The notes below the pieces were generated by a model. That model did not search any database. It saw only the letters and a program-made list of their open reading frames with translations, and was not told the origin of the DNA. The position numbers and the translations under genes were made by a program. A stretch of 64,000 nucleotides of DNA from an archaeon HR01 (lineage in GTDB: Archaea; Thermoproteota; Nitrososphaeria_A; Caldarchaeales; Caldarchaeaceae), in assembly GCA_002898355.1 (NCBI GenBank), contig BEHD01000001.1:1-64000 (forward strand), read 5' to 3'. The stretch's first letter is position 1. Each line of letters starts with the position of its first letter. This document shows, in pieces, positions 26,500 through 33,730 of this stretch.

Positions 26500-27922
26500 G
26501 CCGATGTATGTTGGCCCTACACTTACTTAAATCTAGCCTCCCCACCGGAGGCTTCTACGTTTATAAGGAACCAGTAAACAATAATATCCGCTGGAGATGA
26601 CGGTTCCCACCCTAGAGATGGGAACCCGAAGCGGAAGAAGCTCACAGCCTTCAATGACCGCGCCCAAGGGTATGGATGCGTCGCCAACTGGACGAGCAGA
26701 CGCCTTAGGCCAGAGTACGCCAGCCGGTGGATAACTCGGCTCGGGGGCCGAGGAAGGGCGTGGCAAGCTGCGATAAGCCCCGGGTAGCCGCAGGCAGGCG
26801 TTGATCCGGGGATGCCCGAATGGGATTTCCTGACGCCGACCACTTCGGTGGTTGGTGTCGCTCCAGGCTTTAAGCCCTGGAGGGGGAACCACCCGAACGG
26901 AAGCATCCAAGTAGGGTGAGGAGAGGAAATCAAAACGAGACTCCCTGAGTAACGGCGAGTGAAAGGGGACCAGGCCAAACCGAACCGCCGTGGGAAACCA
27001 TGGTGGGATGTGGAGTTATGGGTGCAGCCGCCCTCCCCTGTCCGGCGATTCGAAGCGACCTGGAATGGTCCGCCATAGAGGGTGAAAGCCCCGTAGAAGA
27101 AGTCGGACGAGGAGATGGGCTGCCACCCGAGTACCATACCTCGGATATGGTGTGGGAAGTTGGGAGCCACCGGCTTCCAAGCCTAAGTACCTCCCGAGAC
27201 CGATAGCGCAGCAGTACCGTGAGGGAAAGTTGAAAACTACCCCGGGAGGGGGGTGAAAAGCGGTTGAAACCGGCTGGTAATAGACGAGGGCTGCTCCCAA
27301 GGTACTCCATCCGAATGCACCCACGTGGGTGCGTAGGGTGGATTATCCGGGGTAGCCCGCTCCGTCTTGAAACACGGGCCGGGGAGTTCACCGTTGTGGC
27401 GAGCTTAACGGCTCACCAAAGCCGGTAGGCGTAGGGAAACCGAGAGCCCGCAACCGGTGTAAGCCGGTGAGGGGCCGGGTCCGAACAGGGCCTGTAGTCA
27501 CAGCGGTGAGGCTAGAAACCGGGCGATCTAGCCCTGGGTAGGGTGAAGCCGGGCGAAAGCTCGGTGGAGGCCCGAACGCGTCCTGACGTGCAATTCGGTG
27601 CGTTGACCTGGGGCTAGGGGCTAAAAACCAATCTAGCCCGGTGATAGCTAGTTCCTCCCGAAGTGTCTCGCAGGACAGCCTCGGCGGAGGCCGCCTGCGG
27701 GGTAGAGCACCGATGGGGTGGTAAGGGCTCGAAAGGGCCCACCATCCTTTCGAACTCCGAATCCGCAGGCGCCGGAGAAGCCGGGAGTGGGGTGTGCGGG
27801 GTAAGCTCGCACGCCGAGAGGGGAACAACCCAGACCGCGGGTTAAGGCCCCCAAGTGCCCGCTAAGTGACAAACCAAAGGGCGTCTCCCTCCTAAGACAG
27901 CGGGGAGGTGGGAACAGAAGCT

Positions 27923-27962
<40 letters not shown>

Positions 27963-28479
27963 AGGGGGGCCCCGAAAATTGACGGGTCTAAGCGGGCCGC
28001 CGAAACCCGGGTTCACCCAGTCTTGGGCTGGGTGGAGGTAGGGAGGCGTGGCGGTTGGGTGGAAGCAGGGCCGTGAGGTCCTGTGGACCGACCGCCAATG
28101 TAGATCCCGGCGGTAGTAACAGCGAAGCGGGGTGGGAATCCCCGCCGCCGAAGGGGCAAGGGTCTCCCGGCAATGCGTCGTCAGCCGGGAGTAAGCCGGT
28201 CCTAAGGCCGACCTTAACCGGGTAGGCCGAAAGGGAAACCGGTTAAGATTCCGGTGCCTCCGGAGTACGTGCGGCAACGCAAGCCCGGCATCCGACGCTT
28301 CGGGGTAGGCTGAGCAGGGCCGTAGCTCTGTCTAAGCGTATAAGCCTGGGGAGTGGCGTAAAGCCGAGAACCAGGTGAAAGCGCCAACGGCCGCCCGTAT
28401 GGGCGGTTCAGCTGATCCCTGGAGCCCGTGAAAAGGGTGCTGGGAAGGATCTCCGGAGACCGTGCCAAGAACTGACACC

Positions 28480-28514
<35 letters not shown>

Positions 28515-28640
28515 TCACTCCAGGGCGAGGGAACTCGGCAAACTAGCCCCGTAACTTCGGGATAAGGGGTGCCTGAGGCCTTGGCCGGAAGGCTGGGGCC
28601 TTAGGTCGCAGTGACAAGGGGGTCCTGACTGTTTAATAAA

Positions 28641-28861
28641 CGGGCGTGACCACCTAATGATGCGCCGAGGATGAGAAAGACAATCAACCCATATCTCGCT
28701 GGTTTTCTCTAGTTAAACGAGAAATCAGAGCAACTGATACAAACGGTTAACATATCGTTTTGGTAAAATTTTCGGTTACAAATTCACGGAAAACATGACC
28801 TTAATAAACTAATCCAGTGCTTATCCTCGGCAAAGCTGAAGGTGCTTCTGCCCGGTTAAAA
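28641..28861 (+). other. 23S rRNA intron 1, ORF-less, probable BHB type
   Basis: Splits TTTAATAAA|AACATAGG; ends CGGGC/GCCCG pair. Confidence 0.85.
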
Positions 28862-28984
28862 AACATAGGTAGCCGCAAGGCCGAAAGGCTGTGAACGGCT
28901 ATTGAATCCTGGCCAGTGCGGGTACTCGAAAGCCGGGTTCAACCGGCATAAGGGCCCGTAAACGCCGGGAGTAACTCTGACTCT

Positions 28985-30116
28985 CGAGCTAAAGGGAGTC
29001 GTTAAACCCGGCTGTATGCGGGGAATTCCAGAGCCCCCAACTACCTTAAAAGGTAACAATGTTGGGGGTTATGAGGAAGACCCGCAGGAAACCCCTGCCA
29101 AAGTGGTAGCCATGCTCACCGATTTCTCCGACATAATCGACCCAGAGGAACTTCCTAACAGGCTTAGCCAGCTCAAGTGGCACATAACAGGGTTCGTCGA
29201 CGGAGACGGAAGCTTCCCGATAATCCTTTCACCCGACGGTGGAAAAAAATTCGGCTGGCTAATCCAGCCAAGGTTTGAGGTGGAGCTTCGAAGCAGCACA
29301 GACTCCGAGGTCATGCTCAAGGTGATCTGCAGAGCCATGCAGATTAGGCCAAAGATATTCGCCGGCGAAAACTACGTCAAACTCATCGTTACCAACAGGA
29401 GGATGCTGCTGGAGAAGGTGGTTCCCTTCTTCGAAAAATACAGGCCAGCGGTCAAGTGGCTGGACTTCAAAATAATGAGCGAGGTTGCGCAAGACCTTCA
29501 GCAGAAGAGACATCTAGAATACGATGGATTCAAGGAGATCATCAGAAAAATATACTCCATCCCACGGGACGGAGAGACAAGAAGGAAGTGGAGGTTCGAG
29601 GACATAATCAAGGACGAGGAGCCGCCGCCTCCCCGTGAAGACACTAGGACAAGACTGCCCAGCGGACTTGTACCGCTCAAACACTACGTCGCAGGCTTCA
29701 TAGACGCCGAAGGCTCACTCGGATTCGACGTAAACAGGGAGACAAGGTCGATAACACCGTATCTCACGATAACCAGCTCCGAGACAGATGTTCTGAGGAA
29801 AATTAGATGGCTTCTAGGCTGTGGAGAAATCAGCAGAGGAAGGCTTCAGATCTACGGCGTCAACAACATCGTTAACAGGGTTGCACCGTTCCTCGACAGA
29901 CAGAAGCTAATAGCAAAAAGGACAACCTACAAGATGTTTAAGCAGATACTTGAGACGGTAGTCAGAGGCGATCACAAGAGAAACTTCCAAGAAACCGTTG
30001 AACTCGTCAATATGTTGAACAAAACTGCAGGGGGATCCCCAGAGACCATACGCCGGGCGCCCTCAGCAAATGGAGGGGGCGAAGATATGGTCCAGCACCC
30101 GTAAAAAAGGGTGTTG
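28985..30116 (+). other. 23S rRNA intron 2: group I intron
   Basis: Splits GACTCT|CTTAAGGTAGCC; P1 GACTCT/GGGAGTC with U.G at splice site; P3, P4, P5, P6, P7, P8, P9 pairings found; terminal G at 30116. Confidence 0.9.
29112..30104 (+). CDS. LAGLIDADG homing endonuclease (two-motif), in intron 2
   Basis: WHITGFVDGDGSFPI and HYVAGFIDAEGSLGF; ORF from 29016, ATG at 29112 lies after the P6 5' strand. Confidence 0.93.
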   Translation: MLTDFSDIIDPEELPNRLSQLKWHITGFVDGDGSFPIILSPDGGKKFGWLIQPRFEVELRSSTDSEVMLKVICRAMQIRPKIFAGENYVKLIVTNRRMLLEKVVPFFEKYRPAVKWLDFKIMSEVAQDLQQKRHLEYDGFKEIIRKIYSIPRDGETRRKWRFEDIIKDEEPPPPREDTRTRLPSGLVPLKHYVAGFIDAEGSLGFDVNRETRSITPYLTITSSETDVLRKIRWLLGCGEISRGRLQIYGVNNIVNRVAPFLDRQKLIAKRTTYKMFKQILETVVRGDHKRNFQETVELVNMLNKTAGGSPETIRRAPSANGGGEDMVQHP

Positions 30117-30147
30117 CTTAAGGTAGCCAAATGCCTTGTCGGGTAAG

Positions 30148-30811
30148 GGCTACGGTGACCGTTGGAGGGGATGCTGGAGTGGAAAGCTTATCTTTCCTTG
30201 GTAAATAGTGGGTAGGTTAGGTGTTTGAAGACATGGATGAAGACTACGCGTACCTGCTCGGAGCCATTCGTGATGCATGTGTCTACTTGCCTGAGTATGA
30301 GCTAAAGTTTGTCCAGAGAGAAGTCAGGTGGCTCACCGACGTTATTAAACCCAAGATGCAACGAGTGTTTGGTCTTGATAAACTCAAAGTGAGGATGAGA
30401 AGGGACAGGCTTTTTGAACTCAAAGCAAACTCGAAGAAGATGGTTGAGAGATTGATTCGGGAGGCAAACGTTGACCGAAGACCCATGGATACGCCGTATA
30501 TAGTAAAGCAGATGCAGTTAGACATACAATTACACTATGTTGCTGGCTTCTATGACGCTGAAGGCGATAAGAGAGGAGATAGAATAAGATTTTGGCAGTC
30601 TTGGCATCAAGAGGGTAACTGTCCACCGCTGGAGTTTATAGCCTCAGTCTTAGCGGATGCAGGTATTGAAACACGTCTTTATAGGCTTGGCAGAAGAAAA
30701 GGCAAATTGTTTGAGTTTTGTCTAGAAATTTCTCAAATTTATCAGAAAAAAATGTTTTATTTGTTGATCCCACTCCAGCATCCGAGCCTGGTCCTCCGAG
30801 CCCCCCGAGAG
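30148..30811 (+). other. 23S rRNA intron 3, BHB type
   Basis: Splits GGGTAAG|TTCCGACG; GATGCTGGAGTGG pairs with CCACTCCAGCATC. Confidence 0.88.
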
Positions 30812-30826
30812 TTCCGACGTGCATGA
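30221..30826 (+). CDS. LAGLIDADG homing endonuclease, in intron 3
   Basis: DYAYLLGAIRDACVYLP and LHYVAGFYDAEGDKRGDR; stop codon lies inside the downstream exon. Confidence 0.85.
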   Translation: MFEDMDEDYAYLLGAIRDACVYLPEYELKFVQREVRWLTDVIKPKMQRVFGLDKLKVRMRRDRLFELKANSKKMVERLIREANVDRRPMDTPYIVKQMQLDIQLHYVAGFYDAEGDKRGDRIRFWQSWHQEGNCPPLEFIASVLADAGIETRLYRLGRRKGKLFEFCLEISQIYQKKMFYLLIPLQHPSLVLRAPREFRRA

Positions 30827-31306
30827 ATGGATCAACGAGGGCCCCGCTGTCCCCGCCTGGAGCCCCGTGAACCCACGTAACGTGGGCGAACAGTCCACGA
30901 CCTCCCAACGGGGAAAGAAGACCCTGTGGAGCTTTACTGCAGCCTGTCGCTGGGATGTGGACGGATGTGCAGAGCGTAGCCGGGAGCCGTCGATCCCCGC
31001 CTCTCCGGGGGTGGGGGGAGGCGCCCCTGTAACACCGGCCACGTCTGTTTGCATCTCTCACCGGCGCGGAAGCGCTGGAACAACGGCAGGTGGGCAGTTT
31101 GGCTGGGGCGGCACCCCCTTGAAAAGATATCGAGGGGGCCCAAAGGTCGGCTTAGGCGGGACAGAAACCCGCCGTGAAGTGCAAGGGCAAAAGCCGGCTT
31201 GACAGGACCCTTGAAAGCAAGGGGTCCTGGGGGGAAACCCAGGCCTAGCGATCCATCGGCTCCCACCGGTGGGGGCCGGTGGTGACAGAAAAGTTACCCC
31301 AGGGAT

Positions 31307-31621
31307 ATTGCGCGCAGCAACCATAAAAGCCGCCGATACAGGCTCCTGCAGGGTGTCTGAAGACCTATACTACTTAAGCCTCGATAAACTCGCTTTATTG
31401 GAGAACGGATTTGACAGAATGATGTCAAATTACTCGAAGCTGCCCGCAGAGTATTAGAAAACCATGGCTTGGAATGTGGGAAAATAACACGTTCAAGAGA
31501 TGTGTATGCCCTACCGATTTATGGTAGGGGTAGAATGGCCCAATTTATGAAACACATAGGCTTCAGACACCCTGAAAAAAGGAGAATGATGAGGCGGAAG
31601 GTTGTCCTGGCGCAACCCTAG
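31307..31621 (+). other. 23S rRNA intron 4, BHB type
   Basis: Splits CCCCAGGGAT|AACAGGCTCG; TTGCGC/GCGCAA closing helix. Confidence 0.85.
31310..31620 (+). pseudogene. Decayed LAGLIDADG endonuclease remnant in intron 4
   Basis: Frame 1 ...SEDLYYLSLDKLALLENGFDRMMSNYSKLPAEY stop; other frame VKLLEAARRVLENHGLECGKITRSRDVYALPIYGRGRMAQFMKHIGFRHPEKRRMMRRKVVLAQP. Confidence 0.65.
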
Positions 31622-31651
31622 AACAGGCTCGTCGCGGGCGAGAGTCCCCAT

Positions 31652-32500
31652 CCCGCGCCCGTTGGGGGAGCGGATAAATAATCCAGAGGATCACAATCGA
31701 TGAGTTGAATTCGGAGACGATTGACGTCTTAGAATCCTTGTCACCCACCTACATCCGCACATATGTTAGATCGGTTGACGAGGACCTGATAATAGTTGAG
31801 GGCAAAAGTGGTGGCAAAAAATTTAGAGACACTCTGCCGCGTTACATACGCTTTGACCAAGAATGCTGCTATAACATCGGACTATGGTTAGGCGATAGAT
31901 GGGGAGGAAAATCAAGGGTTGGCATCAAAAACAAAGACGTTGAACTGATAGCCGCTTTTTACTGGTTCCTGCGAAAAAAGATGAAACAGGATAGTCCTAG
32001 GTTCTTGTCGTAAAAAAGAACAGCAACGTAAGCATTGAGCCGACAACCAACATAAACCTTCCAACCACCCCGGTTGAGGTGATAGACAACACAATATTTG
32101 GGCCGTGGATCTACGCTGTATTTGTTCAGAATGGTGCATTGAGAACAAAAGTCATGAACCAAATCGAGAACACACTACTGCTAAGATTTGAGTCCTCTGG
32201 AGAAGAGGTTGCAGCATCATTTATGGCAGGTGTGCTCGATGCAGAAGGCGGATTCGAGCACAATAAAAAGAGAGTAGCTATCTCTGTCTCGCTGAGTAAA
32301 AAATCAGGTACCTTTGAGTTTGAACTCTACTCCAATTTATTGAGAAAATTGGGCGTAAAATTTTTCACAGTTAAAGACGATGAATCAATTGTTTTAAGAA
32401 TCCCGCATGGTCAAATCCCTGTTTTATGTGACAAAGTTGCATCAATAATGCGCTGCAGCCGTAAGGTATCGCTCCTCCAACACTGGGCGGGAGGATAAAT
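31652..32500 (+). other. 23S rRNA intron 5, BHB type
   Basis: Splits AGTCCCCAT|CGACCCCGCGG; CCCGCGCCC/GGGCGGG closing helix. Confidence 0.85.
31705..32498 (+). pseudogene. LAGLIDADG homing endonuclease split by a frameshift, in intron 5
   Basis: ORF 31705-32013 (YNIGLWLGDRWGGKSRVGIKN) and ORF 32079-32498 (ASFMAGVLDAEGGFEHN); second frame continues upstream as VLVVKKNSNVSIEPTTNINLPTTPVEVI. Confidence 0.75.
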
Positions 32501-32610
32501 CGACCCCGCGGCTTGGTACCTCGATGTCGGCTCTTCCCAACCTGGCCGTGCAGAAGCGGCCAAGGGTGCGGCTGTTCGCCGATCAAAGGGGAACGTGAGC
32601 TGGGTTTAGA

Positions 32611-33247
32611 CGCCTCGTCTGGGGGAGTTCTTATATTTACTGTTGTGTTATCTGGGGTATGTCCGGTTGGGAGAGGCTGCAGGTTATCTATGGCTCTTTG
32701 CTGGGTGATGCATGGTTGGATAAGCCAGCCGATGGCAATGCAAGGCTTCAAGTTAGACACAGTATAAAACAGCGTGGTTATGTTGAGTTCAAAAACCGTG
32801 TGTTAAAGCCGTTAAGCCTCGACCTGATATTCTATGAGTATCTTGATAGAAGAACAGGCAAAACCTATAGACAGGTAGGGTTCAATACACGTAGACATCC
32901 TCTGTTCACGTATTTGCGGCTGTTGTTTTATAACAACGGCGTGAAAACATTCCCTGTAGAGCTGTTTGACGATATGGATGAGATTGCCCTGGCAATCTTC
33001 ATAGGCGATGATGGTACGTTTGATAAAAACGCAGGAACGGTCAAGATATCAGTGGATAGTTACAGGCTTAGAGAAAGAGAATTGATACGGGCATGGCTCG
33101 AGAGAAAATTCAGCCTAAAAACAACATTACAGAAGGATAGAGTATACGTCCTCAAAAGCAGCCTCCCAACCCTAGTTAAGATAGTGTCACAGTACATGCC
33201 AGAAAGCATCCATTATAAACTATCTCCCCCTTGACAGGCGGAACAAA
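32611..33247 (+). other. 23S rRNA intron 6, BHB type
   Basis: Splits GGGTTTAGA|CCGTCGTGAGACAG; CGCCT/AGGCG closing helix. Confidence 0.88.
32659..33234 (+). CDS. LAGLIDADG homing endonuclease, in intron 6
   Basis: LQVIYGSLLGDAWLDKP and ALAIFIGDDGTFDKN. Confidence 0.88.
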   Translation: MSGWERLQVIYGSLLGDAWLDKPADGNARLQVRHSIKQRGYVEFKNRVLKPLSLDLIFYEYLDRRTGKTYRQVGFNTRRHPLFTYLRLLFYNNGVKTFPVELFDDMDEIALAIFIGDDGTFDKNAGTVKISVDSYRLRERELIRAWLERKFSLKTTLQKDRVYVLKSSLPTLVKIVSQYMPESIHYKLSPP

Positions 33248-33730
33248 CCGTCGTGAGACAGATCGGATTTTACCTGTTGGGAGTGCTGGCTGCCTGAGGG
33301 GAAGGTGCTCCCAGTACGAGAGGAACGGAGCGCCGGGGCCAACGGTTTACCGGTTGTCCTACAGGGCACTGCCGGGCAGCTGCGCCCCCGCGGATAAGGG
33401 CTGAAAGCATCTAAGCTCGAAGCCGCTCCCGAAAATAGGCAGCCGCTCGCTGGATAAGGGCCTGGCGACAGGCCTGTTCCGGCGACGAGGGCTCCCGTAG
33501 AAGACGGGTTTGATGGGGTGGGGGTGTACGGATGGAGGCTTCGGCCGGACATCCTCAGCCCGCCACTCCCAACCGCCCGAGTGGCCTAAGGAAAGCTCGT
33601 CTGGGCGAAAACGCATCCACCCTCTCATGGGCGCGGTCCAAATTCCCTTGCTGTGTTCAGCCCCGAGGTATGGTGGAGAATATCGAGGCGCCAAAACCGT
33701 TATAATTGGAGACGCAGACACTAACTGGAA

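Follow-up and report, generated by a model that had tools for sequence, protein, structure and literature searches.

Anatomy, covariation, and exact ends support a group I intron with a LAGLIDADG endonuclease gene in an archaeal 23S rRNA gene

The 23S rRNA gene in the window, a 64,000-nucleotide stretch of DNA from archaeon HR01, a member of the Caldiarchaeum family, is split after U1923 (E. coli numbering) by a 1,132-nt insert, 28985-30116, which raises the questions of what class of intron this is, where exactly it ends, and how it came to be there. The host gene matches the archaeal LSU rRNA model RF02540 with 2027 bits and is apparently the sole 23S gene in the 1.76-Mb assembly. A first-pass annotation had proposed that a LAGLIDADG-encoding group I intron interrupts an archaeal 23S rRNA gene; the covariance matches, the compensatory changes, and the host-gene match all agree with that proposal, and the anatomy, covariation, and ends of the insert make it very nearly certain that the proposal is right (Table 1).

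Comparison with empty sites shows the predicted splice ends to be exactly U28984 and C30117. In particular, the 5′ exon sequence GACTCT (28979-28984) ends, by alignment, at the base equivalent to U1923 in E. coli 23S rRNA (rrlA numbering at this point is one higher), while omega-G at 30116 and the first 3′ exon base, C30117, can be read directly. Of 61 relatives, 26 have the empty junction GACTCT-CTTAAGGTAGC, and one of these (G005) belongs to the same genus as the genome of Candidatus Caldiarchaeum subterraneum, which we take to be the source of BA000048. The uninterrupted site TGACYCTCTTAAGGTAGC in these relatives fixes the ligation product. The splice sites and ligated exons first read from the window are the ones recovered by the exact-end models and by the empty junctions.

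Table 1. Features of the group I intron and its host 23S rRNA gene (window coordinates).
Feature	Coordinates	Strand	Basis and remarks
Host 23S rRNA gene, including introns	26703-33580	+	RF02540 match, alignment; 3′ end approximate
BHB intron, 221 nt, no ORF	28640-28860	+	Perfect BHB; length as the alignment requires
P1 5′ exon strand GACTCT, last base U1923	28979-28984	+	Direct reading, intron alignment, E. coli alignment
Group I intron, LSU/1923 insertion, 1132 nt	28985-30116	+	Covariance models, empty-site comparison, alignment
Internal guide sequence GGAGUC, P1 3′ strand	28995-29000	+	Paired in 21/21 introns, one compensatory pair
P3 5′ strand, partner 30052-30057	29007-29012	+	Paired in 21/21; compensatory changes at 4 positions
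P4 5′ strand, partner 29081-29085	29018-29022	+	Covariation in relatives
P5 hairpin, 29032-41/29061-70	29032-29070	+	In relatives, single positions show as many as 6 standard pair types
P6 5′ strand, partner 30027-30033	29092-29098	+	Covariation; P6 loop holds most of the ORF
LAGLIDADG homing endonuclease gene	29112-30104	+	ORF opens at 29016, with Met33 as likely start; stop 30102-30104
First LAGLIDADG motif, ITGFVDGDGS	29184-29213	+	Motif pattern, domain match
Second LAGLIDADG motif, VAGFIDAEGS	29688-29717	+	Motif pattern, domain match
P7 30044-50/30086-92, around P3′ 30052-57 and P8 30058-64/30075-81	30044-30092	+	Covariation; P8 register corrected
P9 hairpin 30094-100/30109-115, followed by omega-G 30116	30094-30115	+	Covariation
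BHB intron, 664 nt, LAGLIDADG-like ORF 30221-30826	30146-30809	+	Alignment, BHB scan
BHB intron, 315 nt	31307-31621	+	Alignment, BHB scan
BHB intron, 849 nt, with a divided LAGLIDADG-like ORF	31650-32498	+	Alignment, BHB scan
BHB intron, 637 nt, LAGLIDADG_2 ORF 32659-33234	32610-33246	+	Alignment, BHB scan

The insert contains the conserved P3-P8 core with the P3/P7 pseudoknot, a U·G pair at the 5′ splice site, and a G as its final base. Across 21 introns, compensatory changes are seen in P1, P3, P4, P5, P6, P7, P8, and P9, and the pair corresponding to U28984·G28995 in P1 is U·G in every one (21/21). Paired cells amount to 98% and 96% on two alignments, as compared with 32-48% in a control in which the partners were slid by 1-3 columns. 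The helix positions of the first-pass annotation hold for P1, P3-P7, and P9; its P8 was about 2 nt out of register. Specifically, the P8 pairing CCCTC/GAGGG is broken in C. subterraneum by a change at 30073, while the corrected pairing, CGCCCUC/GGGGGCG, is kept.

To represent the family, two covariance models were prepared from 19 other archaeal L1923 introns, with the window intron and its nearest relative left out. The 5′ model matches window positions 28979-29091 (94 bits, E 8e-23) and the 3′ model matches 30040-30116 (66.3 bits, E 3e-14); the runner-up matches of both models elsewhere in the window score 12-14 bits. The general model RF00028, which had been suggested as a check, recovers the 3′ half of the intron (29929-30113, 25.4 bits, E 5e-4) and stays below its curated 50-bit cut-off, because the ORF splits the ribozyme. 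This cut-off is a database criterion, not a biological one, and the miss is a limit of the general model, not of the intron. Across 400 genomes, RF00028 gave weak, mixed output, with several matches near E 0.005, and it gave no significant archaeal match in the survey of Nawrocki, Jones and Eddy 2018 (PMC6125680).

The sequence decides the class of the intron, not its activity; from it we infer splicing and cleavage, with GTP-dependent catalysis (two transesterifications), double-strand DNA cleavage, and homing proposed from what is typical of the family. In the precursor rRNA, the intron would fold around the P3/P7 core, and P1 would set U28984 opposite the guide G. Exogenous guanosine would bind in P7 and cut after U28984, and the freed 5′ exon would attack after G30116, restoring GACUCU-CUUAAGGUAGCC. 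The ORF product, a two-domain LAGLIDADG endonuclease, probably cleaves 23S genes that lack the intron at this very position, and repair of the cut gene would copy the intron in.

A search pattern that links the S element of P7 to the terminal G and the 3′ exon identifies L1923 introns in 12 of 400 genomes of the phylum, and the reversed control pattern in 0. In species-level genomes, this strict pattern identifies 46 contigs or loci in archaea and bacteria, the archaea including Aigarchaeota, Nitrosocaldus, Bathyarchaeota, Brockarchaeota, Hermodarchaeum, Heimdallarchaeota, Micrarchaeota, and others. A peptide scan of genome contigs with the whole endonuclease returned no match, whereas the DNA pattern scan did find loci. 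In a MAG labelled Sulfolobales, the pattern is present on two contigs (L057, CAKZTZ010000020.1, and L081, CAKZTZ010000018.1), in both near the end of a sequence stretch, possibly reflecting two copies or an assembly overlap. L1923 introns of other archaea and bacteria (e.g. IB4.11, IB4.13, IB4.20, and IB4.28) have in common with the window intron the site, the core, the S element AAGATATGGTC, and omega-G, and the tail of their LAGLIDADG ORF likewise extends, in an identical frame, into the 3′ core.

The earlier remark that group I introns are uncommon in archaeal rRNA is outdated: Nawrocki, Jones and Eddy list 39 archaeal group I introns, several of them at LSU/1923 (PMC6125680), and the pattern scan finds 46 L1923 loci in archaea and bacteria. 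The closest published intron in that list is IB4.9 (BA000048.1:1314432-1313300, LSU/1923, subtype IB4, source given as Aigarchaeota); our match in G002, at 1313316-1314401, corresponds to its coordinates. IB4.9 and the window intron occupy the same site, are 1133 and 1132 nt long, and have 46 differences in 1133 aligned columns (96% identical); their endonucleases are 95% identical, and IB4.9 likewise lies within an LSU gene bearing further insertions. The two differ in host, which for IB4.9 belongs to a different genus, and in the other introns of the 23S gene, which differ as a set. The 96% identity to IB4.9, scored IB4 in PMC6125680, is the basis on which we provisionally assign subtype IB4 to the window intron. 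The main-text discussion of PMC6125680 does not take up the two-domain nature of the IB4.9 endonuclease. We regard the window intron mainly as the counterpart of IB4.9, of modest further interest for its two-domain enzyme, the signature of transfer, and its place as one ribozyme intron among five BHB introns. It also confirms the published intron from an independent genome, by its covariation, its exact ends, and the empty sites in relatives.

The intron contains an intact homing endonuclease ORF, and comparison with C. subterraneum indirectly indicates transfer between lineages. The endonuclease has a dS of 0.13, as compared with dS values of 1.96 and 2.06 (near saturation; 58-60% protein identity) for two orthologs 11-19 kb away, the basis of this comparison being two housekeeping genes on the same contig. 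The difference implies recent horizontal transfer, and a transfer between the window and C. subterraneum lineages is the simplest reading. Overlap with the ribozyme cannot explain the low dS, since the greater part of the ORF is contained in the loop of P6. Vertical inheritance from the common ancestor of the window genus and Caldiarchaeum, with no recent transfer, is a rival account of the history of the intron, not of its class. It would fit the flanking 23S exons, which differ from those of C. subterraneum at ordinary levels (94-96%) and which show no tract of co-conversion beside the intron: the 124 nt upstream contain 8 differences, none closer than 37 nt, and in that stretch C. subterraneum is identical to the intronless G005. 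The absence of co-conversion neither favors nor excludes transfer, and the low endonuclease dS, the empty site inside the other genus, and the sporadic distribution of L1923 introns together make vertical descent improbable. Recent transfer stays the preferred reading, and an endonuclease so little diverged between genera suggests continuing mobility of group I introns in archaea.

A reading on which this is a degenerate group I intron, without splicing of its own, would leave the rRNA fragmented or dependent on host factors. The overlap of the ORF with the 3′ core, which may constrain that core, would speak for this reading; we consider it very improbable, since all core helices are intact, the differences from C. 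subterraneum lie largely outside helices, and the rRNA from what is apparently the only 23S gene in the assembly must mature. The rival on which the insert is a LAGLIDADG-encoding BHB intron, removed by the tRNA splicing endonuclease, would bring it into line with the five other introns of the gene and has a negligible chance of being correct. At this site the best that the BHB scan offers is weak (3 of 4 central pairs, 1-bp inner helix, score 13, a score reached at 13% of random positions); ligation there would fail to regenerate the rRNA, and it is the group I core that covaries. The combination of two 3-nt bulges, a 4-bp helix, and correct ligation is absent here and present at the five other introns. 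On the group I reading, a single rRNA gene combines a ribozyme intron with five BHB introns spliced by proteins, a good natural test of how the two splicing routes coexist in one precursor.

The endonuclease gene overlaps P7, P3′, P8, and part of P9, and its product has two LAGLIDADG_1 domains, each significant by itself, with the motif acids D and E intact. Two LAGLIDADG motifs are recognized in the window and C. subterraneum enzymes, whereas the other L1923 intron ORFs examined (~165-215 codons) have one recognizable motif or none by the same pattern. In an alignment, one- and two-motif enzymes share a terminal tail (ETIRRAP...) encoded by the P7/P3′ stretch; this shared, ribozyme-coded tail places the second domain between the first domain and the tail. 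Most archaeal L1923 introns have this ETIRRAP frame across the 3′ core of the ribozyme, one stretch serving as both catalytic RNA and protein tail. With a dN/dS of ~0.2 against C. subterraneum, the predicted endonuclease is shown to be under purifying selection.

An AlphaFold model of the endonuclease has moderate confidence (pLDDT 71, pTM 0.47). In Foldseek, it aligns over ~300 columns, spanning both domains, with two-domain meganucleases, at low TM-scores (0.39-0.43). The predicted two-domain arrangement derives mainly from sequence, the relative placement of the domains being weakly modelled, and the enzyme is predicted to be a monomer. The meganucleases I-LtrI, I-OnuI, and I-LtrWI, known from fungal mitochondria, have two LAGLIDADG_1 domains per chain, as does the window enzyme; they are ~20% identical to it and differ in target site. 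PDB 4lq0 matches residues 46-335 of the window enzyme, and PDB 2ex5 (I-CeuI) matches its first domain (E 4e-7). The intron of I-CeuI, in the Chlamydomonas chloroplast LSU gene, is also at L1923. I-CeuI and I-ShaI, the latter from CPR bacteria (PMC11270868), are likewise LAGLIDADG_1 enzymes of rRNA group I introns and, unlike the two-domain window enzyme, are single-domain; I-ShaI has been shown to form dimers (PMC11270868). Searches with the endonuclease found no phage match, one weak plasmid match (23%), and, in viral contigs, LAGLIDADG matches that were all distant, at about 25%.

With its two domains, the enzyme hints that fused homing endonucleases may arise locally from single-domain ones. 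Internal duplication and a BHB-intron enzyme, as origins of the second domain, are not told apart by trees of the two halves: the tree groups that domain with BHB-intron enzymes without support (84/57), and simple internal duplication is not rejected (p-AU 0.34). Among the 400 phylum genomes, the second domain finds its best matches, the window and C. subterraneum enzymes apart, in BHB L1927-region enzymes (44.7, 41.2, 41.2, and 40.9 bits), and the best L1923 enzyme reaches 34.8 bits; outside that sample, one L1923 enzyme (L090) reaches 41.0 bits, as compared with 41.3 for one BHB-intron enzyme. A hybrid enzyme, with a first domain from an ordinary L1923 group I enzyme and a second captured from a single-domain enzyme of a BHB intron near L1927, is a speculative and rather unlikely origin; if it were true, enzyme domains would have moved between group I and BHB introns targeting overlapping 23S sequence.

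The five further introns of the host gene were located by alignment to intronless 23S genes, and the BHB scan finds a perfect motif at all five, with lengths exactly as the alignment demands. Random places score as high as these sites in 0.07% to 6% of cases, and the agreement in length at all five sites adds to this. The five lie approximately at E. coli positions 1782, 1952, 2449, 2477, and 2588, and the set of BHB introns in the 23S gene differs among the window genome, C. subterraneum, and G005. The gene in the 849-nt intron consists of two ORFs, 31705-32013 and 32079-32498, possibly a decaying endonuclease. In other loci (L009, L011, L107, L108, and L113), BHB-type introns lie a few bases downstream of the L1923 site, near L1927, and encode single-domain LAGLIDADG enzymes related to the group I ones. 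The 16S rRNA gene of the window genome is not adjacent to the 23S gene and is divided between two contigs near model position 860 (G000 C15:49947-51046 and C17:42306-42906), perhaps by an assembly break.
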